Shown here one piece after another: positions 44,104 to 63,826 of a DNA stretch of 64,000 nucleotides. The position numbers and the translations under genes were made by a program. A model generated the notes under the pieces. It saw nothing but the letters and a program-made list of their open reading frames with translations. It had not been told where the DNA came from and searched no databases. Source of the stretch: Candidatus Tumulicola scandinaviensis (GTDB lineage: Bacteria > Vulcanimicrobiota > Vulcanimicrobiia > Vulcanimicrobiales > Vulcanimicrobiaceae); assembly GCA_003140835.1 (NCBI GenBank), contig PLLA01000080.1:11003-75002 (forward strand), given 5' to 3'. The number at the start of each line of letters is the position of its first letter. Position 1 is the stretch's first letter.

Positions 44104-45240
44104 CTATGCGCGCTCGTACAACCAGCGCATGATGCCGGCGGCGACCAACTGGTATTCGACCGGATGCAACCGTTCCATCACAGCCGCTTCGTCTTCTCCG
44201 TCGCGTACGCGCAGCGGCTTGCGCGCGAGAACCGGACCGCGGTCGGTCGCCGGCGTAACCACGTGCACGGTGGCCCCAACCCACGCGCCGTTCGCCGCCA
44301 GAGCGTCGCGTACAGCTCGCGGCCCGCGAAACGCGGGAACGGTCGAACCGTCCGGCAGCGCGACGACGTCGCTCGTGGGGTCCAACGGCAAAAACGCCGG
44401 ATGGACGTTGATGAGGTTCGGAAACGTTCGGACAAAGGGCTCGTCGAGCAGGTGCATCCATCCCAGCAAGAGCACCAGGTCGGGCTGCATCGCCGACACC
44501 GCTTCGAGCAGCCGCGCATCGTACGCGGAGCGTGGTTCTTCTTTTCGATGCCACGGCAAGACCGCGATCGACGCGACGTCCGCCATCCGCGCGCGTTCGA
44601 TGGCAAGCGCGCCGGGATTGTTCGTCACTAAGCCAATGACGTCGATCGGAAGCCGGCCGCTGCGAGCGGCGTCCAAGACCGCCTGAAAGTTACTGCCGCT
44701 GCCGGAGGCCAGTATCAGCGTTCGCGGTCGCGGCGCGGCCAGCGCGGTGCGCTCGAAGCGTTCGGCCACCCGCGCACCGACCGCGTCGGCGTAATATCGA
44801 ACCAAGCCCGCATCGCCGACCGCTGCAATCAGGGCACGAGCGTACCCGCGTTCTCGCAGCCCGATCAGCGCCAGCCGCAATAGAACTGCGCCCAGCCCCG
44901 ATCCACGCTCGGGCGGCGCGACGCCAAACGGTCCAAAGATGCCCACGTCGCGTTCGCGTGCGAGGCCGCGCAGCCAACGAAACCGTAAATCCTTCGCGTC
45001 GAAGGTCGCGAAGCCAACCGGGTTGCCATCGCGAAATGCAACGGCGTTGGTGCCCGCGCGTGCTTCCGAACTCCAAGCTCCGCCGAACTCGTCGTCGATC
45101 CACGCAAGCGTCGTACCGCCGGCGTCCAAAGGCGCGACGACGTCCACGCCCGGTATCGAGTTTCGCAACCCGAGGACCGCTTCGGGCGAGAGCGCAAATC
45201 GCTCGTCTAAATCGACGACGAGATTGAACAGATCCCCCAC
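44104..45240 (-). CDS. purN: GNAT domain fused to phosphoribosylglycinamide formyltransferase (PurN)
   Basis: 378 residues. Residues 1-170 form a GNAT domain (FGPFGVAPPERGSGLGAVLL; the Q/RxxGxG/A motif is R112-G117). Residues 171-378 are PurN: ILASGSGSNFQAVLDAA, VTNNPGALAIERA, LLLGWMHLLDEPFV, N278/H280 in INVHPAFLPLD, and D333 in ATDRGPVLARKP. It formylates GAR with 10-formyl-THF, step 3 of purine synthesis. An insertion of about 18 residues (DPTSDVVALPDGSTVPAF) splits the usual HPSLLP..FPG loop. The role of the GNAT part is unknown. Neighbours purM and GAF gene lie upstream. Confidence 0.88.
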   Translation of the reverse strand: MGDLFNLVVDLDERFALSPEAVLGLRNSIPGVDVVAPLDAGGTTLAWIDDEFGGAWSSEARAGTNAVAFRDGNPVGFATFDAKDLRFRWLRGLARERDVGIFGPFGVAPPERGSGLGAVLLRLALIGLRERGYARALIAAVGDAGLVRYYADAVGARVAERFERTALAAPRPRTLILASGSGSNFQAVLDAARSGRLPIDVIGLVTNNPGALAIERARMADVASIAVLPWHRKEEPRSAYDARLLEAVSAMQPDLVLLLGWMHLLDEPFVRTFPNLINVHPAFLPLDPTSDVVALPDGSTVPAFRGPRAVRDALAANGAWVGATVHVVTPATDRGPVLARKPLRVRDGEDEAAVMERLHPVEYQLVAAGIMRWLYERA

Positions 45241-45251
45241 GCCGGTTGCCG

Positions 45252-45704
45252 CTATTCGAACAGCGGCATGAGCGCGATAGCGCAGCGTTCTACAAAATCG
45301 CGATCGTCGTCGGAAAATGCTCCCAAGCGATCGCTCTCGACGTCGAGCGTGCCGATCGGGATTCCGCTTTCCGCACCGAGGATCGGGACGATCATTTCCG
45401 AGCCGGTCGACTCGAACGCGGTGAGATATCGCGAATCCTTGGCGACGTCGTTACAGATCACCGTGGAGCGCGTCCGGACGGCGTCGCCGCTCAATCCTTG
45501 CTCCGAAGAAAATTCGACGAAGACCGGCGCCTGCACGCCGGTGTGGCCGATCAGCTCGATGCGATCGTCGTCGACGTCGTAGATGCCGACCCACCGATAG
45601 TCGCGGGCGGCACGCACGATTTCGGCAGCGCGTCGCGCGCGTACGTTGCGCGCATCGAGCGTGTCGAGTGCGGCCGACAGCTCGCGCGCGATCGCGTCGA
45701 TCAT
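45252..45704 (-). CDS. GAF-domain protein
   Basis: 150 residues from ATG 45704, overlapping purM by 4 bases; the longer frame is a purM shadow. A single GAF domain: WVGIYDVDDDRIELIGHTG, EFSSEQGLSGDAVRTRST, CNDVAKDSRYLTA, GSEMIVPIL and GTLDVESDRLGAF. It resembles free-methionine-R-sulfoxide reductases, but the catalytic Cys before the SEIVVP-like strand is not present (YLTAFESTGSEM), so a sensory or ligand-binding role is more likely. Confidence 0.78.
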   Translation of the reverse strand: MIDAIARELSAALDTLDARNVRARRAAEIVRAARDYRWVGIYDVDDDRIELIGHTGVQAPVFVEFSSEQGLSGDAVRTRSTVICNDVAKDSRYLTAFESTGSEMIVPILGAESGIPIGTLDVESDRLGAFSDDDRDFVERCAIALMPLFE

Positions 45705-46747
45705 GCGTCGTCCCGCGCCGGATGCACGACGACGCGCGGTTCCGAGCCGCTGCGCGCTTCGATCCATCCGACCACGGACGCCCCAGGACTCGCAGCCACG
45801 GCGGCGGCTGCATCGGACAGCCCCACGACCAGCGTGTAACCGACGCCCATGTTGAAGGTGCGATACCGCTCCTCGAGGTCGAGACTTCCTCGCCGCACGA
45901 GCTCGCGCTGAATCGCAGGGACGGTCCAGCGCTGCTGTTCGAACACCGCCTTCACGTTTTCCGGCAAAGTGCGCGGAACGTTTTCGAGCAAGCCGCCGCC
46001 GGTGATGTGCGCCATCGTCTTCACGCGCGCAACGCGCTGAATCGCGCGCACATCGTCGTAGTACGAAGGATGCGGTGCCAAGAGCGCATCGCCGTAAGTT
46101 CCTCCGCCGTCCGGCATGGGCACGCTCCACTCCTCGGGCGGAATCAGCGAACGCGCCAACGAGTAGCCGTTGGTGTGCAGTCCGACGGCCGGCAGCCCGA
46201 CGATCGCGTCGCCCGGGATCACATCGGCAGGATTTGGAACTTCGGCGACCTCGACCGTGCCCACAATCGTCCCGGCGAGATCGAAGTGGCCCGGCGCGTA
46301 GAGTCCCGGCATTTCGGCGGTCTCGCCGCCGAGCAGCGCGCAGTTGTGGGCGCGGCACGCCCGCGCGCAGCCGCCGACGACCTCCGCGGCCACCGCCGGA
46401 TCGAGTTTGCCGACTGCGAAATAGTCTAAGAAAAATAGCGGCGTTGCATTCACGACCAAGATGTCGTTGACGCAGTGATTGACGAGATCGGCGCCCACCG
46501 TATCGTATCGTTGGAGCTCCGCGGCGATGAGGATCTTCGTCCCGACGCCGTCGTTGGAAGCGACCAGCGCGCGCCGCTCGTCCCCCGGCATGCGGAAAAT
46601 GCCGCCGAAACCGCCGATCGCGTCGAGCTGGTCGGGATGCCGCCACTGCCCCAGCAGCTCCCGATAGCGTGCAACCGCAGCGTTGCCGGCGGCAATGTCG
46701 ACACCGGCGCGCGCGTACGCATCGGGACTCCGACCTATGTCGGTCAT
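45701..46747 (-). CDS. purM: phosphoribosylformylglycinamidine cyclo-ligase
   Basis: 348 residues. YARAGVDIAAGNAAV, GGFGGIFRMPG, LVASNDGVGTKILIAAE, HCVNDILVVNATPLFFLDY, LLGGETAEMPGLY and HITGGGLLENVPRTLP are all diagnostic for PurM (AIR synthetase), step 5 of IMP synthesis. Divergent from pepA; the 61 bases between hold no clear promoter box. Confidence 0.97.
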   Translation of the reverse strand: MTDIGRSPDAYARAGVDIAAGNAAVARYRELLGQWRHPDQLDAIGGFGGIFRMPGDERRALVASNDGVGTKILIAAELQRYDTVGADLVNHCVNDILVVNATPLFFLDYFAVGKLDPAVAAEVVGGCARACRAHNCALLGGETAEMPGLYAPGHFDLAGTIVGTVEVAEVPNPADVIPGDAIVGLPAVGLHTNGYSLARSLIPPEEWSVPMPDGGGTYGDALLAPHPSYYDDVRAIQRVARVKTMAHITGGGLLENVPRTLPENVKAVFEQQRWTVPAIQRELVRRGSLDLEERYRTFNMGVGYTLVVGLSDAAAAVAASPGASVVGWIEARSGSEPRVVVHPARDDA

Positions 46748-49188: not shown

Positions 49189-50589
49189 TCAGCTCGAGCG
49201 AACCGCCGTACGCGCCCCATCGTAGGATAGCGTTCGAACTTTATGCGTTGCGGGAACGTTCGGATACTCTCCCGTCAAGCATCCAAGGCACATCTCCTCA
49301 CGTTTGCGGCCACTGGCGGCGACCAGTCCGGCTAGGCTGAGATAGCCGAGAGAATCGGCGCCGGTCCGCTCGCGAATTTCTTCGACGGTGTAGTTCGCCG
49401 CCACGAGTTCGTCGTAGGTCGCCATGTCGACGCCCAGGTAACACGGGTGTTTGATCGGCGGCGACGTAATCCGCAGGTGCACTTCGGTCGCGCCGGCCTC
49501 ACGCAGCAGCGCGACGATGCGCGGCGTCGTCGTTCCGCGCACGATGGAATCGTCGACGACGATGACCCGCTGGCCGATGAGATTCTCGACCACGGGGTTG
49601 AACTTGAGGTGAACGCCGCGCGATCGCATGGCTTGATCTGGGCTAATGAACGTGCGCCCGATATAGCGGTTCTTGATGAGTCCCTCGATGTAGGGCAGGC
49701 CGCTCTCGGTGGCATAACCGATGCCGCCGGGAACCGCCGAGTCGGGCACCGCCATGACGACGTCGGCTTCGACCGGATGCTCCTTCGCGAGCTGGCGCCC
49801 CATCGCGTATCGCGCCATATAAATGGACCGTTCGTTGAATTTTGAATCCGGTCGCGCGAAGTAAATGTATTCGAACATGCACAGCGCCGGAATGGCCGAC
49901 TCGACGTCGGTCTGGAACGATTCCAAGCCATCGGCGGTGATGCGCACGATTTCACCGCGCTCGATTTCGCGAACGTACTGCGCGCCGATGGTGCCCAACG
50001 CGCACGATTCCGACGCAACTACGTAGCCGCCGTCGATGAGCGTTCCGAGACAGAGCGGCCGCACGCCCCAAGGGTCCCGAAACGCGTACAGCTCGTCTTG
50101 GGTGCAGAGCACGACCGAATACGCGCCGCGGGCAACCGCGAGCACCGCCTTGATTCGATCGACCATCGAGCCTTTCGACTCGACCAGCAGCTTGGCAACA
50201 ACTTCCGAGTCGGAGCTGGCTTGCAGCACCGTTGAGGGCGAAAGCGTTTCCCGCAACTCGTCGGGGTTGGTAATGTTTCCGTTATGCACGAACGCAAAAT
50301 CGCCCAGCTCGGTGCGCTCGAGCAATGGTTGCGCGTTGACGACGATCGACGAGCCGGTGGTGGAATAGCGCGTGTGGCCGACCGCGATGTGACCGCTGAG
50401 CTGTGCCAGGATTTCTTCGTTGAAGATGGCGCTGAGCAAGCCCATCTCTTTGTGCGACCGGATCGTTCCCCCGTCGGCTGCGGCGATGCCCGCGGACTCC
50501 TGGCCACGATGCTGGAGCGCGTATAGCGCGAAATACGCGAGGCGGGCTGCGTCGCGACCGGGCGCGAAGACCCCCGTAATCCCGCACAT
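49189..50589 (-). CDS. purF: amidophosphoribosyltransferase, [4Fe-4S] type without propeptide
   Basis: 466 residues starting Met-Cys, so the catalytic Cys2 is exposed by Met removal, unlike Bacillus PurF which needs propeptide cleavage. Motifs: CGITGVFAPG, LQHRGQESAGIA, AVGHTRYSTTGSS, CMFEYIYFARPDS, VDDSIVRGTTTPRI (PRPP loop). Four Cys positions matching the iron-sulfur ligands of Bacillus PurF are present: in CMFEY, in KHPCYLGVD, and two in MCLGCLTGEYP. Catalyses the first committed purine step. An extended -10 promoter lies immediately upstream. Confidence 0.96.
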   Translation of the reverse strand: MCGITGVFAPGRDAARLAYFALYALQHRGQESAGIAAADGGTIRSHKEMGLLSAIFNEEILAQLSGHIAVGHTRYSTTGSSIVVNAQPLLERTELGDFAFVHNGNITNPDELRETLSPSTVLQASSDSEVVAKLLVESKGSMVDRIKAVLAVARGAYSVVLCTQDELYAFRDPWGVRPLCLGTLIDGGYVVASESCALGTIGAQYVREIERGEIVRITADGLESFQTDVESAIPALCMFEYIYFARPDSKFNERSIYMARYAMGRQLAKEHPVEADVVMAVPDSAVPGGIGYATESGLPYIEGLIKNRYIGRTFISPDQAMRSRGVHLKFNPVVENLIGQRVIVVDDSIVRGTTTPRIVALLREAGATEVHLRITSPPIKHPCYLGVDMATYDELVAANYTVEEIRERTGADSLGYLSLAGLVAASGRKREEMCLGCLTGEYPNVPATHKVRTLSYDGARTAVRSS

Positions 50590-51381: not shown

Positions 51382-52656
51382 CTACTCCGGGACTTTCCCA
51401 ATGTCGGTTCGGTAGCTCAGCGAATACGTGCCGATGCGGCGCGCGAGCGTCTTGACCGCATCGTAGGCGCGATTTCGGGCCGCTTCGAGGTCGTCGCCGA
51501 GCGCGGTGACCGTCAAGACGCGGCCGCCGCCGATGTTGACCTTACCGTCCACGAGCGTCGAGCCGCCCCAAAATGCCTGGCACCCCTCGTCGAGCGAAAC
51601 GTCGGCGCTCAAGCCGCGAAGCGGCGTGTTGCTGCGCGGGTAGTCGCTGGTTGCGAGCACGACGCCGGCGCAGCTCTGACTCGAAAGCGTCGCCAGCGAG
51701 AGATCCATCGCGCCGTCGGCCGCCGATTTGAGCAACTGCGCGAAGTCACCGCCGATGCGCGGCATCAGGACTTGCGTTTCCGGATCGCCGAAGCGCGCGT
51801 TGAACTCGATGACGTACGGTCCGTCGACAGTCCACATCAATCCGCAGTACAAAACGCCGACGTACTCTTCGCCCTCCGCCAGCAGCCCGCGTAGTACCGG
51901 CGCGAGAATGCGCTCGCGCACGCGGTCGTAGAGGTCGTCGGGAAATCCGCGCGGCGGCGAGTAGGCGCCCATCCCGCCGGTGTTCGGGCCCGTGTCGCCG
52001 TCGCCGGCGCGTTTGTAGTCGCAGGCGGCCGAGATCGGAGCCATCGCGCGCCCGTCCGCCAGCGCGAACACGCTCACCTCGCGGCCTTCCAGCACTTCTT
52101 CCAATAAGACGTCGGAGCCGCCGCCCGGAACTTTGTTTTGCGCGTACCACTCTGCCAGCTCCGCGCGAGCCGAGTCGAGGTCGGCGCAAACGATCACGCC
52201 TTTCCCAGCCGCCAAACCATCGGCTTTTATCACGACGCCGCGGCGCTTCCACGTATCCAGCGCTTTCACGGCAGCCTCCAACGAATGCACCACCACCGCG
52301 CGCGCGGTCGGGACGCCATGTCGCTCCATGAATCGCTTCGCGAACACTTTGCTCGATTCGAGCCGACCGCTCGAGCGATTGGGACCGAAGACCGAAATCC
52401 CCGCCTCGCGCAGACGGTCGCCGACGCCCGCCGCGATCGCGGTTTCCGGCCCAATTACAACGAAATCGACGCGCTCGTACAGGCACTTATCGACGAGCGT
52501 TTTACCGTCGGTAGCCGATACGTTCCAATTCTCGCCGCGCGATGCGGTTCCGGCGTTCCCAGGCGCCGCGAAGATCGTTTCGCACGACGGCGATTGCGCG
52601 AGCCGCCAAGAAAGCGCATCCTCACGTGCCCCGTTTCCGACAACTAAGATGCGCAT
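51382..52656 (-). CDS. purD: phosphoribosylamine-glycine ligase
   Basis: 424 residues. N-terminal domain with VVGNGAREDALSWRLAQSP, ATP-grasp region with FMERHGVPTARAVVV, VVIKADGLAAGKGVIVC, LLEEVLEGREVSVFAL, NTGGMGAYSPPRGF and FNARFGDPETQVLMPRI. ATP-dependent coupling of phosphoribosylamine and glycine, step 2 of purine synthesis. Six bases after the guaA stop, so co-transcribed. Confidence 0.97.
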   Translation of the reverse strand: MRILVVGNGAREDALSWRLAQSPSCETIFAAPGNAGTASRGENWNVSATDGKTLVDKCLYERVDFVVIGPETAIAAGVGDRLREAGISVFGPNRSSGRLESSKVFAKRFMERHGVPTARAVVVHSLEAAVKALDTWKRRGVVIKADGLAAGKGVIVCADLDSARAELAEWYAQNKVPGGGSDVLLEEVLEGREVSVFALADGRAMAPISAACDYKRAGDGDTGPNTGGMGAYSPPRGFPDDLYDRVRERILAPVLRGLLAEGEEYVGVLYCGLMWTVDGPYVIEFNARFGDPETQVLMPRIGGDFAQLLKSAADGAMDLSLATLSSQSCAGVVLATSDYPRSNTPLRGLSADVSLDEGCQAFWGGSTLVDGKVNIGGGRVLTVTALGDDLEAARNRAYDAVKTLARRIGTYSLSYRTDIGKVPE

Positions 52657-52662
52657 CCGCGG

Positions 52663-54228
52663 CTATTCCCACTCAACCGTGGCCGGCGGCTTCGTCGTGA
52701 TATCGTACGCCACGCGGTTCACGCCGCGTACCTCATTGACGATGCGCGACGAAATGCGTTCGAGCAGCGCGTGCGGCAATCGTGCCCAGTCGGCCGTCAT
52801 ACCGTCTTCGCTGGTGATCGCACGGACGGCAACCAAATTCGCGTACGTGCGCCCGTCGCCCATCACGCCCACGCTTTGCACCGGCGTTAGGACGGCAAAA
52901 TACTGCCATGGATGCGGCTCGAGCGGCGCCGCGTCGATCTCCTCGCGCACGATGGCATCGGCCTCGCGGACGACATCGAGGCGCTCCGGCGTGACCGCAC
53001 CTATGATGCGCACCGCCAAGCCGGGCCCGGGAAAAGGCTGCCGTCCAACGACCGCTTCCGGCAAACCCAAAACGCGCCCGAGCTCGCGGACCTCATCCTT
53101 AAAGAGCAGCCTCAGCGGCTCGACCAATCCGAAGTTCATTTTTTCCGGAAGGCCGCCGACGTTATGGTGCGACTTGATCTTATGGCCGGCTTTGCTTTCG
53201 GGCGTTTTCGATTCGATGACGTCGGGATAGAGCGTGCCCTGCACCAGCCACTTGACGCCCGCGATCTTGTCCGCCTCTTCTTCGAACACGCGAATGAACT
53301 CGTGCCCGATAATGACCCGTTTTTCTTCCGGATCGCTGACGCCCGCGAGCTTCTTCAAGAAGCGCTCGCGTGCGTCGATCGCGCGCACGTTGAGGTGCAT
53401 CACGTCGCGAAACGCGCCAACGACTTCTTCGGCCTCGTTTTTGCGCAGCAGCCCGTGATCGACGAAAATGCAGGTGAGCTGCTCGCCGATGGCGCGCGAG
53501 ACCAAGGTCGCCGCCACCGCCGAATCGACGCCCCCGGATAACGCACAGATAACCTTGTCACTGCCGATCTTCGCGCGAATCGCGTCGATCGCCGAATCGA
53601 CGAACGACTCCATCCGCCACTCGTCGGCAAGCCCCGCGACTTCGCGCAAAAAGTTTCGCAGGACGGTGCGACCGTTTTCGGTGTGCATGACCTCGGGGTG
53701 AAACTGCACGCCATAGATTTTCCGCTTCGGATCGGCCATGGCGGCGACGCTGCAGCGCTGGGTAGCGGCCAGCGTCGAGAAGCCGGCGGGCAGTCGCACC
53801 ACCGAATCGCCATGCGACATCCACACGCGCATCTCGCCGGGGACGTCTTGGAACAACGGCGTGGCGCGCTCGGCGACCTGCAGGGTCGCGGGACCGTATT
53901 CCGCGTGATCGAGCTTCACCAGTTCCGCGCCGAGTTCGCGCGCCAACAGTTGCATGCCGTAGCAGATGCCGATCATCGGGACGCCGCTGGTCACGATCGC
54001 CGGATCGATCCCGGGCGCATCCTCCACCAGGGTACTCTCGGGGCCGCCCGATAGGATGAACGCGGCGGGCGTCCGCGGCGCGAGTTCGCTCCACGGCGTA
54101 TCGAACGGCACGATCTCGCAATACGCGCCCAGCTCGCGCGTGCGCCGCGCAATCAACTGGCTATACTGCGCGCCGAAATCGAGTATGAAAACGGTGGGGC
54201 GCTCCGCCGTTTGGGTGTCAGGCGGCAG
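52663..54228 (-). CDS. guaA: GMP synthase (glutamine-hydrolysing) with a non-standard start
   Basis: Glutaminase domain: catalytic Cys in [16 protein letters not shown] and His in [13 protein letters not shown]. Synthetase domain: P-loop [16 protein letters not shown]-terminal dimerisation end [11 protein letters not shown]. The conserved N-terminus ([18 protein letters not shown]) runs upstream of the only ordinary start in reach, TTG 54156, which would cut it off. The in-frame stop TGA is 14-15 codons further up, and the only plausible initiator between is CTG 54228, with AAGG upstream and 11 bases of overlap with tpx. That start gives 521 residues, a normal length. It aminates XMP to GMP. 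Confidence 0.93.
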
Positions 54229-54760
54229 CGGCCGCCGCCTTCAACGCCGCGTCGTAGTCGGGCTCTTGCGCGACTTCGGGAACGATCTGCACGTAAGCGA
54301 GGTTCTTGTCTTTTCCGATGACGACGATCGCGCGCGCGAGTAAGTCCAGCTCGCCGATGAGCAAGCCGTAGTTGCGCCCGAAACTGCGATCGCGGTAATC
54401 CGAAAGCATCCCGAGCCGCACGTCGCCTTCTTGCGCGCCCGCCCATCGCGCTTGGGCGAACGGAAGATCCATGCTCACGACCCACGCGCTCACGCCGGCG
54501 GGAAGTTCGCCGAGTCGCTGGTTGAACTTCTGCGATTCGAGCGAGCAGACGCTCGTGTCGAGAGACGGTACGACGATCAGCATCGCGGCACGCTTGCCGG
54601 CGTCGACCAGCTGGTCGAGGGTCAGGGAAGACAGATCGCCGGCGGTGAGCCTAAATTCCGGCGCCGGAGCGCCAGCCTCCAGAGCCGGTCCCTGCAAGGT
54701 CATGGGTTTCCCTTTGAACGTCACCACATCGGTGCGTTCTTGCACGTTTTGCGCGCTCAT
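54218..54760 (-). CDS. tpx: thiol peroxidase (Tpx) lacking the resolving cysteine
   Basis: 180 residues. [20 protein letters not shown] and [20 protein letters not shown] (peroxidatic Cys72, with Thr69), then [18 protein letters not shown], follow the Tpx pattern. In typical Tpx the segment reads DLPFAQxRFC, so the resolving Cys is Ala107 here and Cys72 is the only Cys in the protein. It would work as a 1-Cys peroxiredoxin, reduced directly by an external thiol. Ribosome site GGAGG four bases upstream. Confidence 0.9.
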
Positions 54761-54790: not shown

Positions 54791-55930
54791 TTAGGTCAAA
54801 ACCGATTCCAAGCGATTGGTGTCACGCGCCATCGAAATTTCCATGGCGATGCGCTCCCCGACCGAGACGTCGCGCCCCCAACGATACGCCGAGTACGGCG
54901 TGTAGCGCGTTCCCGGCGAACCGGGGATGCGCAGCGAAACGTCGTAGCACACGAATTCTTTCGGCGGACCGGCAACCACGATGCACTGCAGCGCGAACGG
55001 GCCGATCACGCCGGGCGGATTCTCGGCCGAAGCGGCTGCCAGAAATCGCTCGCCCATATCGAACGCCTTCTCCAGCATCGACTCGGTGAGCGTCGTAGCA
55101 ATGTGGCCCGCCTCTTCGAGGCGCATCGGAACCTCGCGGAGCGCGTCGAATGCCGACGGCGGCACGCTGCGGAAACCTTCGAGATTCGTTTGCCGGCGCG
55201 TGTCGGTTCCGCTCAGCTCTAGTTCACCTAAGACCGGCGAATAAAAGAAGTTGAGATTCACCGACGGCCCGAGCGCGTACTCCTCGATGACCGCGCCGGC
55301 CAGACCGTCTTCCGTCAGCATGCCGTTATTGAGGAGCCGGGTCGCGGTTCGTTCGAACTCGGCCGGTGACGACGCCAAGAAGAACGCGCGCTCGAAACTG
55401 ACCTGTGCGTGCGGCGCCTTCACCATCGCCAGGCGGTCGATATCGCGCGGCGATGCAAAGCGCCTGGGATACCGAATGCCGGCTCGTTCCATGAGAGCGT
55501 ACTGATTGCACGCCTCGTCGCGTTCTTCGGCTCGCAGCAAGCTGCGATTACCGAAAAAGGGAACCAGCATACCGCGTTCGATTTCGTCGTACCCGAACCG
55601 CTGGTGAAGGTAGACCTCGAACGAACGGTTCGGCACGAAGACGACGTTCTCGGCGAGCAGCCGGCGTTGGACGCTGTCCTGCAAGATGTCGGGAAACTCG
55701 TCCAGTTCCAACACTTGGTCCACGCAACCGCGCGCCGGCCCCGGCGACTCGCGCCGCATGAAATGCTCGGCGTACGTTCGCTCGCGCCCCTTGGCCGTGA
55801 TCACCAGGTTCCGAAGGCCCTGCGCGCGAGCGCCATACGCCACGTCGAGTGCCGAATGGCTGCCGATCGACGCCAGCGTCAATCGCGAGCGATCGTACGA
55901 TGCCAGCGCGCGCGCCACATAATCGGTCAC
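54791..55930 (-). CDS. PurP-like ATP-grasp protein, diverged paralogue
   Basis: 379 residues from GTG 55930, seven bases after the cydB stop; the frame to 56002 overlaps cydB. The layout follows PurP: TLASIGSHSALDVAYGARAQ, VFVPNRSFEVYL, VPFFGNRSLLRAE, VIEEYALGPSVNLNFFYSPV, LELSGTDTRRQTNLEG, GPFALQCIVV. However, the glycine-rich ATP loop of true PurP (IVKLYGAAGGKGYMF in the paralogue at 59377) is replaced by MVKAPHAQVSFERAFFL, and ISARIVAGTN reads VSLRIPGSPGTR. It may be an inactive partner of the intact PurP, or have another substrate. Confidence 0.75.
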   Translation of the reverse strand: MTDYVARALASYDRSRLTLASIGSHSALDVAYGARAQGLRNLVITAKGRERTYAEHFMRRESPGPARGCVDQVLELDEFPDILQDSVQRRLLAENVVFVPNRSFEVYLHQRFGYDEIERGMLVPFFGNRSLLRAEERDEACNQYALMERAGIRYPRRFASPRDIDRLAMVKAPHAQVSFERAFFLASSPAEFERTATRLLNNGMLTEDGLAGAVIEEYALGPSVNLNFFYSPVLGELELSGTDTRRQTNLEGFRSVPPSAFDALREVPMRLEEAGHIATTLTESMLEKAFDMGERFLAAASAENPPGVIGPFALQCIVVAGPPKEFVCYDVSLRIPGSPGTRYTPYSAYRWGRDVSVGERIAMEISMARDTNRLESVLT

Positions 55931-55937
55931 CGGACGC

Positions 55938-56933
55938 TCATTCGACGCGAACCTTACCCGCCATGCGCCGCCACACGTACGATCCGTAGACGAGCACGGC
56001 AATGCTGCCGCCCACCGTCACCGTCAACGCAACCGTCAGCGCCGTTTGCGACGGCACCGCATCGAGGATCGAAATGCCGGCACCGCGTCCGGCAGGAAAG
56101 GCCGGAAGCAGGTACGGATAGAGCGTCCCGGCGGCCTCCAGGAGCAGCGATGCAACGAACGCCGACGACGCGGCAAACGCCCGCGCGGCAAGGCCGCGTT
56201 GCAACGACCACCGCACCGCGAAGAGCGAACCGAGTGAAACGATCGGCACGGCGTAGAGCCACCCGGCCGCGGGGACGCCGCGCACCGCGAACGTCGCCGC
56301 GCTGGCGGCGAGATAGAGTGCGAGTGCCGCCCACCATATCCCACCGAGCAGGCGCGCGGCCCGCACCGCCGGCTCGCCGTCGATTCGCACCATAGCGAAC
56401 GCGGCGCCGTGCTGGGCCAGCGTCACCAGCGCAAAAAGCCCCACCAGCAGCGCGTAGGGATTGAGCAGGAACGCGAACGTGCCGGCGAAGTAGCCGTTGG
56501 CGTCGAGCGGCACGCCGCGCAACAGATTACCCAGCGCGACGCCGAACAGTACGATTAATAGCGTGCTCGATAGCCAAAACGCAACGTCCCAAAACTGGCG
56601 CCACAGGTCCGACACGAAATGGTCGCGCAGCTCCATGGCGATGCCGCGGAACATGAGCATCCAAAGCACCACCATGAACGGCAGATAGAACCCCGAGAAC
56701 GACGAGGCGTAGGCGGATGGAAACAGCGCAAAGAGCGCGCCGCCGGCGGCGATCAGCCACACCTCGTTGCCGTTCCAAAACGGGCCGATGCTCGCCATCG
56801 TCGCGGCGCGTTCGCGGCCGGTGCGCGCGATCAAGGGCGAAATCGAGGCGATACCGAGGTCGTAGCCATCGAGCAGCACGTACGCGGTCAGCATGAACGC
56901 AATCGTCGCGAAGGCGATCGAGGCGAGGATCAT
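55938..56933 (-). CDS. cydB: cytochrome bd-type quinol oxidase subunit II
   Basis: 331 residues, eight or nine helices. YVLLDGYDLGIASISPLIAR, GPFWNGNEVWLIAAGGALFA, FRGIAMELRDHF, and GYFAGTFAFLLNPYALLVG are CydB signatures. With CydA it oxidises quinol and reduces O2 at low oxygen. It overlaps cydA by 4 bases. Confidence 0.95.
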   Translation of the reverse strand: MILASIAFATIAFMLTAYVLLDGYDLGIASISPLIARTGRERAATMASIGPFWNGNEVWLIAAGGALFALFPSAYASSFSGFYLPFMVVLWMLMFRGIAMELRDHFVSDLWRQFWDVAFWLSSTLLIVLFGVALGNLLRGVPLDANGYFAGTFAFLLNPYALLVGLFALVTLAQHGAAFAMVRIDGEPAVRAARLLGGIWWAALALYLAASAATFAVRGVPAAGWLYAVPIVSLGSLFAVRWSLQRGLAARAFAASSAFVASLLLEAAGTLYPYLLPAFPAGRGAGISILDAVPSQTALTVALTVTVGGSIAVLVYGSYVWRRMAGKVRVE

Positions 56934-58258
56934 GCGTCGGTCGCCTGCGAGGGCCCAAGTCCGATCTCGCGCAGCACCAGCAGAATGAAGAGCACGCCAA
57001 GCAAGAAGTACATGCCTGCGAAGCCGATGGCGGTGAAGACCACTTCACCGCTGTTGACGCTCGGCGAGCCGGCGTGCGCGGTGCGCATGATTCCGTAAAC
57101 GATCCACGGCTGGCGTCCGACTTCGGTCACCATCCACCCCGCTTCGTTGGCGATGTACGGAAACGGCATGAGCAACATGAGCAGCCACAATATCCAGCGA
57201 GCCGTGTAGAGCCGGCGAAGCAGCAGCGCGGCCAGCGCGATGCCGCCGATAGCGCCGAAGATGGTGCCAAGCCCGACCATGACGTGATACGCGTAGTACG
57301 TCAGTTCCACCGGCGGCCATTCCTCGCGCGCGTAGGCGCTCAACCCTTTCACGCCCGCGTTGGTATTGCCGTACGCGAGGTAGCTGAGAAATCCCGGAAC
57401 GTAAATCGGATCGACGAGCGTGCCGGTCACCGTGTCGGGCATCCCGATAATGGCCAGCGGCGCACCGTTCGTCGACTTGAAGAGGCCTTCCATCGCGGCT
57501 AGTTTCACCGGTTGATAGGCCGTAACGTCGTTGGCGTTGCCGTCGCCGGTGGGGAATGCGGCGATGGCCGCAAAAATAAAGCCGGCGATCGTCCCGGCGC
57601 GCACGAAGCGCCGAGCGAGCGCCTCTTCTCGCTTCGCCAGCAAGTAGTACGCGCCGCACCCCGCGACGATGAACGCACCGGCCACCAGTGCGCCGGTCAG
57701 CACGTGCGCGAACTGCCACCACGCCCAGGTCGAGAGTAATAGCACGCCGATGCTTTGCAGTTCGATTTTTCCGTTTCGTCCGAGCGCGTAACCCACCGGG
57801 TGCTGCATCCAGGCGTTGGCGGCGACCACGAAATACGCCGAAAGCCAGGAACCCAAACACACGAATATTGCCGACCAGGCGACGAACGGCGACGGCCGCC
57901 TATCCCGGCTGCCGTACAGCAGGACGCCGAGGAAAATCGACTCGAGGAAGAACGCGAAGACGCCTTCCATGGCGAGCGGCTGGCCGATGACGCTCCCGCT
58001 GGTACGTGAAAACTCGGCCCAGTTCGTCCCGAACTGGAACTCCATCGGGATTCCGGTCACGACGCCGGCGGCGAAGTTGATCGAGAAGATTTTCGTCCAA
58101 AAGCGCGCCGCGCGGGCCGCGTCGGCGTCGTCGGTGTGGGCGGCCTTCCACGTGTAATACGCGACGAAAGGCGCTAGCCCCATCGTGCCGATCGGAAACA
58201 GATAGTGGAACATGACGGTGAAGGCAAACTGCAGCCGGTCGGCCATCACCGCGTCCAC
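56930..58258 (-). CDS. cydA: cytochrome bd-type quinol oxidase subunit I (short Q-loop)
   Basis: 442 residues from GTG 58258. DRLQFAFTVMFHYLFPIGTM with the axial His of heme b595, GIPMEFQFGTNWAEFS, GQPLAMEGVFAFFLES, FFLESIFLGVL, and WVVYG-like MVTEVGRQPWIVYGIMRT. The length and short loop between helices 6 and 7 fit the short-Q-loop, cyanide-insensitive (CioA-like) type rather than the about 520-residue E. coli form. It is placed between two PurP-type genes, an unusual setting. Confidence 0.94.
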   Translation of the reverse strand: MDAVMADRLQFAFTVMFHYLFPIGTMGLAPFVAYYTWKAAHTDDADAARAARFWTKIFSINFAAGVVTGIPMEFQFGTNWAEFSRTSGSVIGQPLAMEGVFAFFLESIFLGVLLYGSRDRRPSPFVAWSAIFVCLGSWLSAYFVVAANAWMQHPVGYALGRNGKIELQSIGVLLLSTWAWWQFAHVLTGALVAGAFIVAGCGAYYLLAKREEALARRFVRAGTIAGFIFAAIAAFPTGDGNANDVTAYQPVKLAAMEGLFKSTNGAPLAIIGMPDTVTGTLVDPIYVPGFLSYLAYGNTNAGVKGLSAYAREEWPPVELTYYAYHVMVGLGTIFGAIGGIALAALLLRRLYTARWILWLLMLLMPFPYIANEAGWMVTEVGRQPWIVYGIMRTAHAGSPSVNSGEVVFTAIGFAGMYFLLGVLFILLVLREIGLGPSQATDA

Positions 58259-58271
58259 TAGTTAACCACCT

Positions 58272-59396
58272 TCACGTTTGGCCGTTGAGGATTTTGCGGG
58301 CTTGCGGACTGTCTTGATATTCCACCGTGAGAATGGCCCGCAAATGCGTGGCGGCGCCGCGCGAATCTTTGTCGGTCATGCGCTGCAAAGTGGTGTAGCA
58401 CCAATACAACAGCATCGGCAAATCGCGATCGCGCGGGTAGACCTTGTGCATGTCGTCGATCGATTCGGCAACCAGGAGGGTTTCGGCGCTCTCGAGATTG
58501 CCGTAGTTATAGTCGAGCATGTAGTTGATGTGCTTGAGCTGATTTTCGATTCCGAGAATCGACATGCCCATGCGTCCGAAGTACTCGTCGGCGGGCGCGA
58601 GCGTCGTCATATATGCGTCGTGCGGCAACGCGGTTACCGTCGCTATCACCCGAATCGGATCGACCGCCTTCATTCGCCGGACGATCGTGGCCGCGTTCTG
58701 CACGTCGGCTTGCGTAAATCCGCCGCGGCCCACGGCAGCCGAATCGGCGGCCGCGATGAAATCGTTTCCCCACGTGGTCGGCAGATGCGCGATCGGAAAG
58801 TCCGGCGCGGCGGCGCGCTGGAGCACGAGCGTTCGCCAAGCCGGATCGTGGGTCAACACCCACCCGCGCCAGTCGGCCTCGACCTGCGTCAGCATCGCAT
58901 CGACGTCGCGCGGATACGTCTGCAGATTCGCGGTGGCGTCGGCATCGGCCAACCGGGCCAGGTTTTCCGGATCGTCTTCAGAGTTGACGCGCTGCAGCAT
59001 GCCGGCGGCCTGGCCGATCAAGGTCGTATCTTGCGAATGTTTCGAGATCCAGTCGCTCGCTTCGCGCACCCACCACACCGCGGCGTCGTGGTTGGTCAGC
59101 GGATTGTAGTGCAGGCCGGTGCCGATTTGCACGGTGAGCGTCGCCAACTCGCCGTATGCCGGGTCGCCCGGATACTGCAGCGAGTACGCTCGCCCGGCAT
59201 TGAAGATCGTCGAGAGATAATACTCTTGCGAGCGATAGTTCCAGCCGCTGGAACTACCTTTCGCATAGGCATCCTTCATTTGCTGGTACAGTACCGCCGG
59301 ATCGGCCACCAGGGTGGCCTTGGCGGCGATCGGAAGTACGAACGCGGTCGCGAGTGCCGCTACGAGAACGAAACCCTTACAGAATGCTCGAGTCAT
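58272..59396 (-). CDS. secreted helical-repeat protein, unknown function
   Basis: 374 residues with a signal peptide (FCKGFVLVAALATAFVLPIAAKA). The mature part is all helix, with PGDPAYGELATLTVQIGTGL, NLARLADADATANLQTYPRD, and MLYWCYTTLQRMTDKDSRG suggesting TPR-like repeats. Not recognised. It overlaps the purP stop by 20 bases, so it follows purP on the transcript and precedes cydA by 13 bases. Confidence 0.6.
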   Translation of the reverse strand: MTRAFCKGFVLVAALATAFVLPIAAKATLVADPAVLYQQMKDAYAKGSSSGWNYRSQEYYLSTIFNAGRAYSLQYPGDPAYGELATLTVQIGTGLHYNPLTNHDAAVWWVREASDWISKHSQDTTLIGQAAGMLQRVNSEDDPENLARLADADATANLQTYPRDVDAMLTQVEADWRGWVLTHDPAWRTLVLQRAAAPDFPIAHLPTTWGNDFIAAADSAAVGRGGFTQADVQNAATIVRRMKAVDPIRVIATVTALPHDAYMTTLAPADEYFGRMGMSILGIENQLKHINYMLDYNYGNLESAETLLVAESIDDMHKVYPRDRDLPMLLYWCYTTLQRMTDKDSRGAATHLRAILTVEYQDSPQARKILNGQT

Positions 59397-60399
59397 CTAA
59401 TACTAAGCGAAGGTTGTTCGTAAGGAGTGCATTCTTGAGCTCGCGAGCAATCCGGCGACCGGTCGACATCGGCTCGGAGTAGTTCAAGTACGAGTACGGC
59501 GACCCGTCGATGAACAGATTGGTACCGGCAACGATGCGCGCCGAAATTTCCATGACGTAGAACTGAATGTCGGGCGTAATGATCGTTTCGATGCAGAACG
59601 CTCCAAACAGACCTTTCGGCCCGCAAATCTCTTTGCTGATCCGCACCACGTCGTCGCCCATCCGCAGCGCCTCGGCCAGCATCGACTCGCGCAACGACAC
59701 CGGCTGGTTGCCGACGACGACATACGAGGGGCTCACGTCCATGCTGCCCTGCGCGGCCGCCGGAATGCGGCCGAGCGAGTCGACGTTCGTTTCGTACCGG
59801 CGGTCCATCGACATGATCTCGAGCTTGTCTTCCAGAGGCGAATAAAAGTAGTGAATGTAGAGCGGAACGCCAATAATATACTCCTGGATAATGTGCTCTT
59901 CCTTAAGATGAGCGGCCCGGACCTCGAAGTCGTTGGCGTCTTGAATAAACATGTAGCCCTTGCCGCCGGCCGCACCGTACAGCTTCACGATGACGGGCCG
60001 ATCGATTTCGGCGCCGCTCTTGAACTGGCGAGGAAGCGTCAAGCCGGCTCGCGACAGCCACTGCCGCTGAAGTTCCCGGCTGGCTTCCCAATCGAGGACC
60101 GCCTTGTTGCCGAAGTACGGGATTCGCATCTTCTTCTGCTCGCCGAGCGATAGGTACGCAACGAACGAACCGTGCGGGACGATGATGACCTTGCGGCTGG
60201 CAAGCTCATCGACCAGCCCCATGAACTCCGAATAACTACCGAGTGCGATGACTTCGTCGACGAATCCGAACGAGCGATACAAGCGCTCGGTATCGCGATT
60301 GGAAATCGCCAGCGTTTTGAATCCTTCGTCGCGCGCACCTTTGAGAATTTGCAGCGCCGAATGCGAGCCGAGCGTTGCGATCGTATACGGCCGGTTCAC
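59377..60399 (-). CDS. purP: PurP, formate-dependent AICAR ligase (archaeal-type)
   Basis: 340 residues with every PurP landmark: IATLGSHSALQILKGARDEG, VIIVPHGSFVAYLSLGEQ, IPYFGNKAVLDWEASRELQ, PVIVKLYGAAGGKGYMFI (ATP loop), IIQEYIIGVPLYIHYFYSPL, DRRYETNVDSLGRI, YVVVGNQPVSLRES, GLFGAFCIETI and MEISARIVAGTNLFIDGSPY. In Archaea it makes FAICAR from AICAR, formate and ATP, replacing the transformylase half of PurH. It is rare in Bacteria. It lies 3 bases after the PurS-like gene in the purine operon. Confidence 0.9.
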   Translation of the reverse strand: MNRPYTIATLGSHSALQILKGARDEGFKTLAISNRDTERLYRSFGFVDEVIALGSYSEFMGLVDELASRKVIIVPHGSFVAYLSLGEQKKMRIPYFGNKAVLDWEASRELQRQWLSRAGLTLPRQFKSGAEIDRPVIVKLYGAAGGKGYMFIQDANDFEVRAAHLKEEHIIQEYIIGVPLYIHYFYSPLEDKLEIMSMDRRYETNVDSLGRIPAAAQGSMDVSPSYVVVGNQPVSLRESMLAEALRMGDDVVRISKEICGPKGLFGAFCIETIITPDIQFYVMEISARIVAGTNLFIDGSPYSYLNYSEPMSTGRRIARELKNALLTNNLRLVLDDSSIL

Positions 60400-60402
60400 A
60401 TT

Positions 60403-60855
60403 TTACTCACTTTCATAACGCGCTTTCTCGATGGCGGGATTGCAGAGTAAGCCTTCGACGGCACGCGCGAGCGTGTCGCCGGAGGCGGGAGCACCGGCCG
60501 GACCGTACAGCCGCCAGCCGACCGAGCGACTTGCCCGGCTAACGCCGGCGATAGTGGCGCCGCCGAGATGCTCGCGTACTTCGTCGTGCTCGCCGGCCTC
60601 GTCGATCCAGATTTCGCCCACGCGCGGCGCGTGCCCGTCGAGCACGCGCAGCCGGTGTTTGTTGGGATTGAAAATCGCCGCGTTGGCTTCGACGCGCGCG
60701 GCCAGCGTCGCCGGATCGCCGGCATCGTCGAGATGCCAGATTTCGCTACGCTCGACGCGATCGACGTCGAGATCCATCCGCTGCAATGCCGTCAACGCAG
60801 TGTAGGCTTCGTTATCGGGGATCTTCAACTCGATCGCCACGGTGCGTTCGGTCAT
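60403..60855 (-). CDS. purS: PurS-like FGAM synthase subunit, apparently a tandem duplication
   Basis: 150 residues from ATG 60855, overlapping purQ by 4 bases. PurS is normally about 80 residues. Two halves each look PurS-like: residues 1-75 begin TVAIELKIPDNEAYTALTAL and reach VEANAAIFNPNKHRL; residues 80-150 have GEIWIDEAGEHDEVREHL and end LARAVEGLLCNPAIEKARYE, close to the normal PurS C-terminus (LLANPVIEDYxxE). It should bridge PurL and PurQ. A fused pair would fit the two PurS chains usually present per complex, but this is inference. Confidence 0.78.
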   Translation of the reverse strand: MTERTVAIELKIPDNEAYTALTALQRMDLDVDRVERSEIWHLDDAGDPATLAARVEANAAIFNPNKHRLRVLDGHAPRVGEIWIDEAGEHDEVREHLGGATIAGVSRASRSVGWRLYGPAGAPASGDTLARAVEGLLCNPAIEKARYESE

Positions 60856-61622
60856 CGGCCGTTCACCGCGTCGACGAAACTGCGGAACAGCGCCGCACCG
60901 CCCGACGGCGCCAGCACGTCGTTCCCTTCTTGCCGGTCGAGATGATTGAAGTTCCATCCATCGCGTTCGGGATGCGGCATGATGGCCAGCACGTTGCCTT
61001 CGCGATTCACCAGCCCGGCACAACCAAGCGCCGATCCGTTGGGAACGGCCGCCGCGTCGATGCGCCCGTCGCGGTGCGCGTACACGAACGCGAGGTGATC
61101 GCCGGCGACGATCTCTTGCAGGCGTTCGGGGCTCGCCGCCAGGCGGCCCTCACCGTGAGCGGCGTACGCCGGGATCGCTGCGTCGTTCGGCAGCGCGGCG
61201 GTAATCGCGCAGCGCGACGGATCAATCGCCAGCTTCATATACACGTGCCGGCACACGAAATGTGGAACCGGTCCGTTGTCGGTGAACGCCGCGGTCGGGC
61301 GGCGCACCGGGCCGGTCCCAGGAACAAGTCCGGCTTCCAGGAGAATTTGCGCGCCGTTGCAGATGCCGAAGACCAGCTTGCCGGATATCGCTCCGGCAAT
61401 CACGTCGTCCATCATCCGATCGTGCGCCGAAACCGCGCCGGCGCGTATCCGGTCCTCGTAAGCGAAGCCGCCTGGTAAGACGTACGCGTCGTAATCCGTC
61501 AGCCGTTGCGCCCGCGACCAGTGCACGAGTTCCGCCTCGCCACCGCAGTCGCGCAACAGCCGAAGCGTCTCGTCCTCCGAGTTCGTCCCGGGAAACACCA
61601 GCACCGCAATGCGCCGCTTCAC
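60852..61622 (-). CDS. purQ: FGAM synthase glutaminase subunit
   Basis: 256 residues from GTG 61622, overlapping purL by 4 bases (GTGA); the longer frame is a shadow of purL. AVLVFPGTNSEDETLRLL, VLPGGFAYEDRIRAGAVSA, catalytic Cys in FGICNGAQILLEAGLVPG, and His in IMPHPERDGW. It supplies ammonia from glutamine to PurL. Slightly longer than the usual ~225 residues. Confidence 0.95.
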   Translation of the reverse strand: MKRRIAVLVFPGTNSEDETLRLLRDCGGEAELVHWSRAQRLTDYDAYVLPGGFAYEDRIRAGAVSAHDRMMDDVIAGAISGKLVFGICNGAQILLEAGLVPGTGPVRRPTAAFTDNGPVPHFVCRHVYMKLAIDPSRCAITAALPNDAAIPAYAAHGEGRLAASPERLQEIVAGDHLAFVYAHRDGRIDAAAVPNGSALGCAGLVNREGNVLAIMPHPERDGWNFNHLDRQEGNDVLAPSGGAALFRSFVDAVNGR

Positions 61623-63826
61623 GGATAAATCTCGGTCAGCGGCTTCGACCACACATCGTAGAGGGCCGCGACGTCGAAACTCGTTCCGTTGACGACCAGG
61701 CGCGGTTCGCCGATGGTCGTTCCAACCTTCAGGCTTCCGGAGACGTCGACGAGGCCTTCGTCGCTGACTTCGCACAAGAAACCGCCGGCTTCGCACAACG
61801 GATTGCCGAAATCCAGCTCGGCGCCGAGCCGGCGGCCGGCGTTGCGCGCATCGAATGCCAGCCGGGCGAGCGCGGTCAGCATTCCGCCGTCCGAAATGGC
61901 GCGGCACGACAACATCACGCCGGCGGAGATCGCGGTTTCGACGATCGCGATCGCGGCACGTTCAGAGTCGTACGAGATTTCCGGCAGCGGACCGTCGATG
62001 CCGAGGACTTCGGCCAGCACCGAGCCGCCGACGGCCAACTCGCGGCTACCGACCCACAACAACGCCGAACCGGCGCGCTTGAGCCCCGGCGTAACGACGC
62101 GCGACACGTCGCGGAAGCCGCCGACGCACGCCACGATGGCCGACGGCGGGATTGCCGCCCCGGACTTCGACTCGTTGTAGAGGCTGACGTTGCCGGAAAC
62201 AAACGCGAGCCCGAGTTCGCGCGCCGCATGTCCCAATCCATCGATCGCCGCTATCAGTTCGCCGTAGCGCTCGGGCTTGTGCGGATTGCCGAAGTTCAGA
62301 CAGTCTGTCAATCCCAGCGGCCGCGCACCGGTTGCGATCGCGCGGCGAACCGCCTCCAGCACCGCCAGTTCGGCAGCCGCGCGTGCGTCGATGCGGCCAT
62401 AGCGCGGATTGCCGGCAACGCTCAGCGCGACGCCGAGCGTCGAACCCGGTACCGGCGCCAGCACGCCCGCATCGGCTGCGCCACGCGGCAGGACCGTCGT
62501 GCCACGGACCGCCCAGTCGTATCGCCGGTACAGCGGCTCGCGCGAGCAAACGTCCCGATGCGCGAGGATTTTCGGAAAGACGTCTTCCACGTCGACCGCC
62601 GGCAGTTCGCGATGTCCGGGATCGTGGCGAATCGCTTCGACGTACGACAGTTCGTCGTCGATGCGGCCGGTGAGAAACTCGATGTCGACGTCCATCACGA
62701 TCGCGCCGCGATGGCGCAGCACGTAGCGCTTCTCCTGCGTCACGCGGCCGACGACCGTTGCGCGCGCGTTGTACGCAACATGCGGCAACGTAAACTCGTC
62801 GTTGTAGATGCCCACGACGCTGGCGGTCAACTCGGGAGGCAACACCCACAGCAGCCGTTCTTGCGTCTCGCCGACGGCGATAACTTCGGGCGGCAGCCCA
62901 TCGACGGCCACGTTGACGTCGTCGAGATTGAGATCGGCGCCGTAGCCGCCGCCGGCCACGATCTCCGCCGAGCAGCCCATGATACCGCCGGCGCCGAGGT
63001 CTTTGAACCCCGCCACGACCCCGCGCTCGCGCAGCATCGCGAACACCCGGTAGCTCGCGCGCATCAGGACGTTTTCGAGAAACGGATCGGGGACTTGGAC
63101 CGCGCCCTTGTTGGATTCTGCGTCGCTCGAGTCGAGCGTGACCGACGAGAACGAGGCCCCGCCGAATCCGCTCGGATCGGTAGCTTTGCCCACCAGCACG
63201 ATGTCCCACCCATCGGCTCCCGGCGGCGCGTGGGAATGAACGATCTCGGACTCTTTGACGATGCCGAGCGCGACGACGTTGACCAAACAATTGTCGTCGA
63301 AGCCTTCGTCGAAGTACGCATCGCCGGCGAGATTCGGCACGCCGATGGCGTTGCCGTACGCGCCGATTCCGTCGACGGCGCTGCGAGCTACGTAGCGCGC
63401 GTGCGAATGCGGCCTTTCGACGCGTCCGAACCGCAGCGGATCGGCAACGGCAATCACCTGCGCGCCCATGCACAGGACGTCGCGAACGATTCCGCCGATG
63501 CCGGTCGCCGCGCCCTCGAACGGCACCACTTGCGAAGGGTGGTTATGCGACTCGTGCGCCACGACCACGCCGTAGCGTTCGCCGTCGTGCTCCCCGAGAT
63601 GCAGAATTCCCGAGTCTTCGCCGGGGCCGAGCACCACGTTCGCGCCGCTAACCGGAAGCTTCTTGAGATGCCGGCGGCTCGATTTATAGCTGCAATGTTC
63701 GCTCCATTGCGCATCGAACGCGTGCAGCTCCACGGTCGAGGGTTCGCGCCTTAAGTGCTGCGCGATCGCGCGCAGTTCGTCGTCCGACAGGGCGACGTTG
63801 GGTCGCGATGCGGGGGGATTAACCAA
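61619..63826 (-). CDS. purL: FGAM synthase synthetase subunit (small PurL)
   Basis: 735 residues from TTG 63826, which overlaps the preceding gene's stop by 8 bases and has AAGGGG upstream. FDAQWSEHCSYKSSRRHLKK, ESHNHPSQVVPFEGAATGIGG, HAHAPPG-like region, KDLGAGGIMGCSAEIV, LTDCLNFGNPHKPERYGEL and AISDGGMLTALARL are typical small PurL. ATP-dependent step 4 of purine synthesis with PurQ and PurS. First purine gene of the minus-strand run visible here. Confidence 0.96.
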   Translation of the reverse strand: MVNPPASRPNVALSDDELRAIAQHLRREPSTVELHAFDAQWSEHCSYKSSRRHLKKLPVSGANVVLGPGEDSGILHLGEHDGERYGVVVAHESHNHPSQVVPFEGAATGIGGIVRDVLCMGAQVIAVADPLRFGRVERPHSHARYVARSAVDGIGAYGNAIGVPNLAGDAYFDEGFDDNCLVNVVALGIVKESEIVHSHAPPGADGWDIVLVGKATDPSGFGGASFSSVTLDSSDAESNKGAVQVPDPFLENVLMRASYRVFAMLRERGVVAGFKDLGAGGIMGCSAEIVAGGGYGADLNLDDVNVAVDGLPPEVIAVGETQERLLWVLPPELTASVVGIYNDEFTLPHVAYNARATVVGRVTQEKRYVLRHRGAIVMDVDIEFLTGRIDDELSYVEAIRHDPGHRELPAVDVEDVFPKILAHRDVCSREPLYRRYDWAVRGTTVLPRGAADAGVLAPVPGSTLGVALSVAGNPRYGRIDARAAAELAVLEAVRRAIATGARPLGLTDCLNFGNPHKPERYGELIAAIDGLGHAARELGLAFVSGNVSLYNESKSGAAIPPSAIVACVGGFRDVSRVVTPGLKRAGSALLWVGSRELAVGGSVLAEVLGIDGPLPEISYDSERAAIAIVETAISAGVMLSCRAISDGGMLTALARLAFDARNAGRRLGAELDFGNPLCEAGGFLCEVSDEGLVDVSGSLKVGTTIGEPRLVVNGTSFDVAALYDVWSKPLTEIYP

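Follow-up and report, generated by a model that had tools for sequence, protein, structure and literature searches.

Two diverged PurP proteins are encoded in the purine operon of an uncultured soil bacterium of the class Eremiobacteria (Candidatus Eremiobacterota); the ATP loop is intact in one of them (PurP-I) and replaced in the other (PurP-II). On every published diagnostic residue tested, they are the counterparts of the archaeal PurP clusters I and II, respectively. The pair was found throughout the class, in almost every genome in company with PurH (encoded elsewhere), and a second, formate-using route of AICAR formylation is proposed for it, with about an even chance of being correct.

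Results and Discussion

Locus and gene order: The window (the whole stretch of DNA analysed, 64 kb) belongs to a genome of 4.0 Mb (92% complete), in which a Pfam search returned the two PurP ORFs as the only DUF1297 genes. Both lie on the - strand at the positions given in a preliminary description of this DNA, and both carry DUF1246 and DUF1297 far above cut-off (DUF1297: E = 5e-66 in PurP-I; E = 1.5e-52 in PurP-II, ORF 54791-56002), so that the two PurP paralogues named there were confirmed; a match to ATP-grasp_3 was obtained with PurP-I only. The listed start of PurP-II is TTG 56002; GTG 55930 (379 aa) is the most likely start, since most relatives begin nearby and the TGA of cydB is located at 55938-55940. 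The order on the - strand is purL, purQ, PurS-like gene, PurP-I, a gene without Pfam match, cydA, cydB, PurP-II, tpx, guaA, purD, a BAX-inhibitor-like gene and purF; purM and purN follow further along in the same run (Table 1). The clustering of other purine steps around the pair, also pointed out earlier, comprises purL, purQ, PurS-like, guaA, purD, purF, purM and purN. No Rfam elements were found in the window.

Table 1: Features of the PurP locus (positions in the window).
Feature	Position	Strand	Basis and remarks
PurP-I (cluster I, Ib-like, ATP loop intact), 340 aa	59377..60399	-	Pfam DUF1246/DUF1297/ATP-grasp_3
PurP-II (cluster II, ATP loop replaced, His258), about 379 aa	54791..55930	-	Pfam DUF1246/DUF1297; start likely GTG
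purL	61619..63826	-	AIRS, AIRS_C, FGAR-AT linker
purQ (listed ORF; putative start)	60852..61907	-	GATase_5
PurS-like, about 150 aa	60403..60855	-	PF02700 E = 0.013 (below cut-off); conserved place between purQ and PurP-I
Gene without Pfam match, between PurP-I and cydA	58272..59396	-	conserved neighbour of PurP-I; homologue between both PurP genes in many family genomes
cydA-like	56930..58258	-	ORF list; identity read from protein sequence
cydB-like	55938..56933	-	ends just ahead of likely PurP-II start
tpx (thiol peroxidase)	54218..54760	-	NCBIfam PRK00522 above cut-off
guaA	52663..54156	-	GMP_synt_C, GATase
purD	51382..52656	-	GARS_A/N/C
purF	49189..50589	-	GATase_6/7, Pribosyltran
purM	45701..46747	-	AIRS, AIRS_C
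purN with N-terminal GNAT domain	44104..45240	-	Formyl_trans_N 173-285, Acetyltransf_1 59-151

The gene without Pfam match overlaps the end of PurP-I. The insertion with cydA is lineage-specific and was also seen in L035, L046 and L048. The PurS-like gene is nearly twice as long as the PurS profile, its weak match is confined to the last 20 residues, and it is perhaps a duplicated or diverged PurS. In purN the formyltransferase domain is preceded by a GNAT acetyltransferase domain; the purN-like matches of other class genomes also lie within long ORFs, and the fusion may be class-wide.

Diagnostic residues: In the report of Brown et al. 2011 (PMC3261824), archaeal PurP proteins are divided into cluster I, with a glycine P-loop and Asn at position 258 of MJ0136, and cluster II, with a loop longer by two residues, most glycines lost and always His at 258; His27 and Arg314 are given there as 100% conserved in both. 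Residues were mapped (MJ0136 numbering) on 25 PurP-I and 28 PurP-II proteins of the class, together with MJ0136, PF1517 and TK0431.

PurP-I: The gene at 59377 was described earlier as keeping all motifs, and GAAGGKGY and SARIVAGTN are indeed present. GxxGG(K/R)G and ARIVAGTN are retained in 25/25 class homologues, as are His27, Ser94, Asn258, Ser266 and Arg314 (25/25 each); the residue preceding the GG of the P-loop is variable (A/Q/G/K/H/L) and not always K/R as in (K/R)GG(K/R)G. The AICAR and formyl contacts of MJ0136 named in PMC3261824 are present as far as tested. The nearest solved relatives are PF1517 (335 bits) and MJ0136 (294 bits).

PurP-II: The stretches aligned with the glycine loop and SARIVAGTN of PurP-I are KAPHAQVSFERAFF and SLRIPGSPGT, both with little or no variation in the class. 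The loop is longer than that of PurP-I by two residues (KAPHA(K/Q)VS(F/Y)ERAFF vs KxxGAxGG--KGYF), with the glycines gone and basic residues present. His27, Ser94, His258, Ser266 and Arg314 were found in 28/28 sequences each, and further positions near the ATP site have likewise changed throughout (Glu230 to Gln, Glu310 to Asp, Asn320 to Gly, each in 28/28); the invariant loop KAPHAKVSFERAFF is peculiar to cluster II. By its His258, longer loop and His27/Ser94/Ser266/Arg314, the loop-less protein is therefore a cluster II PurP as judged from residues. Both genes are under purifying selection (pN/pS 0.10-0.37), and the earlier observation that the gene at 54791 had lost both motifs with its frame kept holds, in that both stretches are replaced. 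Of the suggested split into a catalytic and a non-catalytic member, the contrast between intact and loop-less proteins stands; the term non-catalytic is one that we only infer, because cluster II has an invariant loop of its own.

An AlphaFold2 model of PurP-II (pLDDT 87) gave 2R7M, 2R7L and 2R7K as top PDB matches (TM 0.84-0.85), all FAICAR synthetase of M. jannaschii; the predicted fold would therefore be unchanged, and the site alone would differ.

Tree: PF1517 and MJ0136 fell together with PurP-I and not with PurP-II (98-99% bootstrap), and PurP-II was separated from PurP-I and all cluster I references (100/100) in a set of references without archaeal cluster II sequences.

Occurrence in the class: The DUF1297 family was found in 111/117 class genomes (97/103 in the order of the source genome and 14/14 in a second order). 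In the rest of the phylum it was found in one genome only (G146), as a single cluster I gene (L176:6935-8002); this genome is 72% complete, no PurH match is listed for it, the gene has no recognised purine neighbours, and it may be a contamination or a separate acquisition. At least two copies are present in 69/69 near-complete genomes with PurP, and all genomes with a single match are <90% complete. Both genes are located on one contig in 57 of the 67 genomes with both matches listed; there they are on the same strand with I upstream of II in 57/57 and within 7 kb in 53/57. The suspicion that the pair forms a functional unit gains from these counts. Across the two orders the arrangement purL-purQ-purS-purP(I)-purP(II)-guaA-purD-purF is preserved. 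In several genera, and in the second order, the PurP genes adjoin directly or overlap; adjacency therefore looks ancestral and the cydAB insertion derived. It is not a requirement, however, since genus g33 retains both genes at a distance of 27-50 kb or on separate contigs.

In a scan of contigs from named genomes, the 80 top-scoring relatives of PurP-II are nearly all labelled Candidatus Eremiobacterota, Vulcanimicrobiota or bacterium; three carry the labels Proteobacteria or Rhodospirillales, probably misassigned, and archaea are not among these 80. Scans of viral, phage and plasmid sequences gave no relatives. Contamination or misassembly as the origin of the PurP genes was ruled out by their presence in 111 class genomes, including the one-contig genome G090 with both PurP and PurH.

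PurH: The absence of purH stated in the preliminary description applies to the window and not to the genome, where a PurH of 543 aa (MGS and AICARFT domains, key residues present; best PDB match, bacterial PurH 3ZZM) is encoded on another contig (G000:C20:18671-19630). PurH was found in 109/117 class genomes, and it coexists with the PurP pair in almost every one. This speaks against a replacement of PurH by PurP; with PurH alongside the pair, a second, formate-using route looks likelier. Of the two observations named earlier as speaking against the proposal, an intact purH in the same genome was made, and a lack of conserved linkage was not, the pair being linked across the class.

Formate metabolism: The search of the genomes for purH, purO and formate genes that had been recommended gave purH, no purO (0/41 genomes), and, in a survey of 21 relatives including the source genome, the following: formate-THF ligase absent in 19/21, the source genome among them; FolD present in 21/21; PurU and PurT, nothing above curated cut-off in the 21 genomes. 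Sub-cut-off matches to the latter two were rejected as formate enzymes; relatedness to other formyltransferases and ATP-grasp enzymes would produce such matches. Matches of the formate dehydrogenase (FDH) alpha type were obtained in 21/21 genomes, with >550 bits in nine including the source genome; the curated cut-off was passed in two only. With formate-THF ligase mostly absent, neither PurU nor PurT, and FDH matches present, PurP would be the direct route from formate to purines, if PurP-I is active.

In the best FDH match of the source genome (L203, G000:C126:20906-22774), the selenocysteine position is occupied by an in-frame TGA (NNIDSCNRT*HAPSVVGL), which is closely followed by a predicted hairpin. 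FDH-type matches with one TGA were seen in many other class genomes, which suggests selenocysteine use in Eremiobacteria.

Proposed function: A parallel formate-dependent formylation of AICAR beside PurH, with PurP-I as the catalytic protein and PurP-II as its obligate partner, is the reading that we favour, at roughly even chances; both genes stay together within the purine operon and under purifying selection, with a working-looking PurH alongside. PurP-I would convert AICAR, formate and ATP into FAICAR, which would enter the normal pathway via the IMP cyclohydrolase half of PurH; PurP-II, with the binding sites for the AICAR phosphate and formyl groups kept and the ATP loop lost, would be a subunit with a structural or regulatory role, or else a specialised second site. 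The pair would thus provide a folate-independent use of formate in parallel to the folate-dependent PurH. As the AICAR-site residues of PurH are conserved, there is no strict need for the PurP route. For PF1517 (cluster Ib) and PF0421 (cluster II) of Pyrococcus, a lack of AICAR formyltransferase activity was reported (PMC3261824); PurP-I is closest to PF1517, and this counts against formylation by PurP-I. The said inactivity would be explained if neither PurP works alone: a stricter version, in which the cluster I and II proteins are obligate subunits of a heteromeric, formate-dependent AICAR formyltransferase, neither being active by itself, and in which this enzyme, run beside PurH, gives Eremiobacteria their sole direct route of formate into purines, is put forward tentatively, as a possibility that we hold to be less probable than not.

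The same reported inactivity (PMC3261824) agrees with a pair that serves purine metabolism by a reaction other than AICAR formylation, FAICAR being supplied by PurH alone. The intact key residues of PurH in 109/117 class genomes fit this explanation, and the invariant loop of cluster II suggests a different chemistry over decay; the retention in PurP-I of all the tested MJ0136 contacts to AICAR and formyl (those given in PMC3261824) and the place of both genes within the purine operon make it rather unlikely. An opposite assignment, in which AICAR formylation depends on PurP alone and PurH is reduced to its IMP cyclohydrolase half, the transformylase site having drifted, is improbable. It would account for the location of purH outside the purine operon and for the His of the PurH motif NPHQ, which is Gln, Trp or Gly in 44/44 class sequences aligned (including L003:1303-2934); however, the Lys-His of KHxxPCG, KSN and R-x-F-x-H are conserved, and RYG retains its Arg-Tyr with few exceptions. 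Two PurP-less genomes of a sister class (L183 of G108, 67% complete; L186 of G132, 100% complete) likewise have Gln in place of the NPHQ His; the His is therefore dispensable or non-diagnostic, the change alone does not amount to loss of activity, and loss of the PurH transformylase is weakened as a full explanation.

For archaea without PurO and PurH2, cluster II was considered speculatively as an IMP cyclohydrolase in PMC3261824, according to which archaea with paired PurP often have no known enzyme for this step; the absence of PurO from the 41 genomes is in line with it. Class PurH, however, keeps four residue motifs of IMP cyclohydrolase (Lys of GRVKTLHP, Tyr of the NLYP type, Asp of the IDIGG type and Lys of AAKN), and PurP-II is nevertheless retained. 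As PurH supplies this activity, the argument from a missing enzyme does not apply, no support for a cyclohydrolase function of PurP-II was obtained here, and we regard it as the most improbable of the assignments. Scarcely more probable is an origin of PurP-II by duplication of PurP-I within the bacterial lineage, followed by decay or local recruitment. A clade of class I and II proteins against the references was not formally rejected by the AU test (p = 0.064 and 0.12), but the best trees join PurP-I to PF1517 and MJ0136, PurP-II is closer to MJ0136 (212 bits, phmmer) than to the neighbouring PurP-I (142 bits, blastp) and fits both archaeal cluster II diagnostics, and purifying selection speaks against decay.

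Significance: PurP has been treated as a signature of archaea, and was still called exclusively archaeal in 2014 (PMC4177761). The proposal of a new form of AICAR formyltransferase had to be dropped, since archaeal cluster I/II pairs, with the P-loop missing from II, have been on record since 2011 (PMC3261824). What is new, as far as searched, is a bacterial class that carries the PurP pair throughout; the pair itself and its combination with PurH were already known from archaea. In the open-access literature, most subscription papers being outside this search, neither a study of PurP in this phylum nor a report after 2011 on bacterial PurP or on an activity of cluster II was found. That near-complete PurP genomes of the class retain the pair without exception, and have PurH besides, speaks for a functional link of cluster II to cluster I and against a mere stand-in for a missing IMP cyclohydrolase. 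Eremiobacteria also offer a non-archaeal source of both proteins for expression. In annotation, such genomes are not to be scored as lacking PurH, and PurP is not to be used as an archaeal marker.

Comparison with known systems: PurH (ATIC) performs the step proposed for the PurP pair in the same genomes, but it is an unrelated, folate-dependent protein encoded outside the purine operon. With the archaeal FAICAR synthetases of cluster Ia/Ib (MJ0136, PF1517) PurP-I shares the domains, the ATP loop, Asn258 and the formyl and phosphate contacts; its host, in contrast, is a bacterium having folate enzymes and PurH. With archaeal cluster II (PF0421, AF0256, the second PurP of Sulfolobales) PurP-II shares His258, the glycine-less loop longer by two residues, His27 and Arg314, whereas its gene is located in a bacterial pur operon, adjoining guaA. 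According to PMC3261824, exactly one cluster II protein is present per species having a cluster Ib protein, one per cluster I as in the class pair, and the genes of Sulfolobales and Pyrobaculum are also adjacent. In Methanosarcinales a full-length PurH co-occurs with two PurP genes, as in Eremiobacteria (PMC3261824); the former are archaea with folate and archaeal folate analogues, whereas the latter are bacteria with PurN and FolD, mostly without formate-THF ligase.
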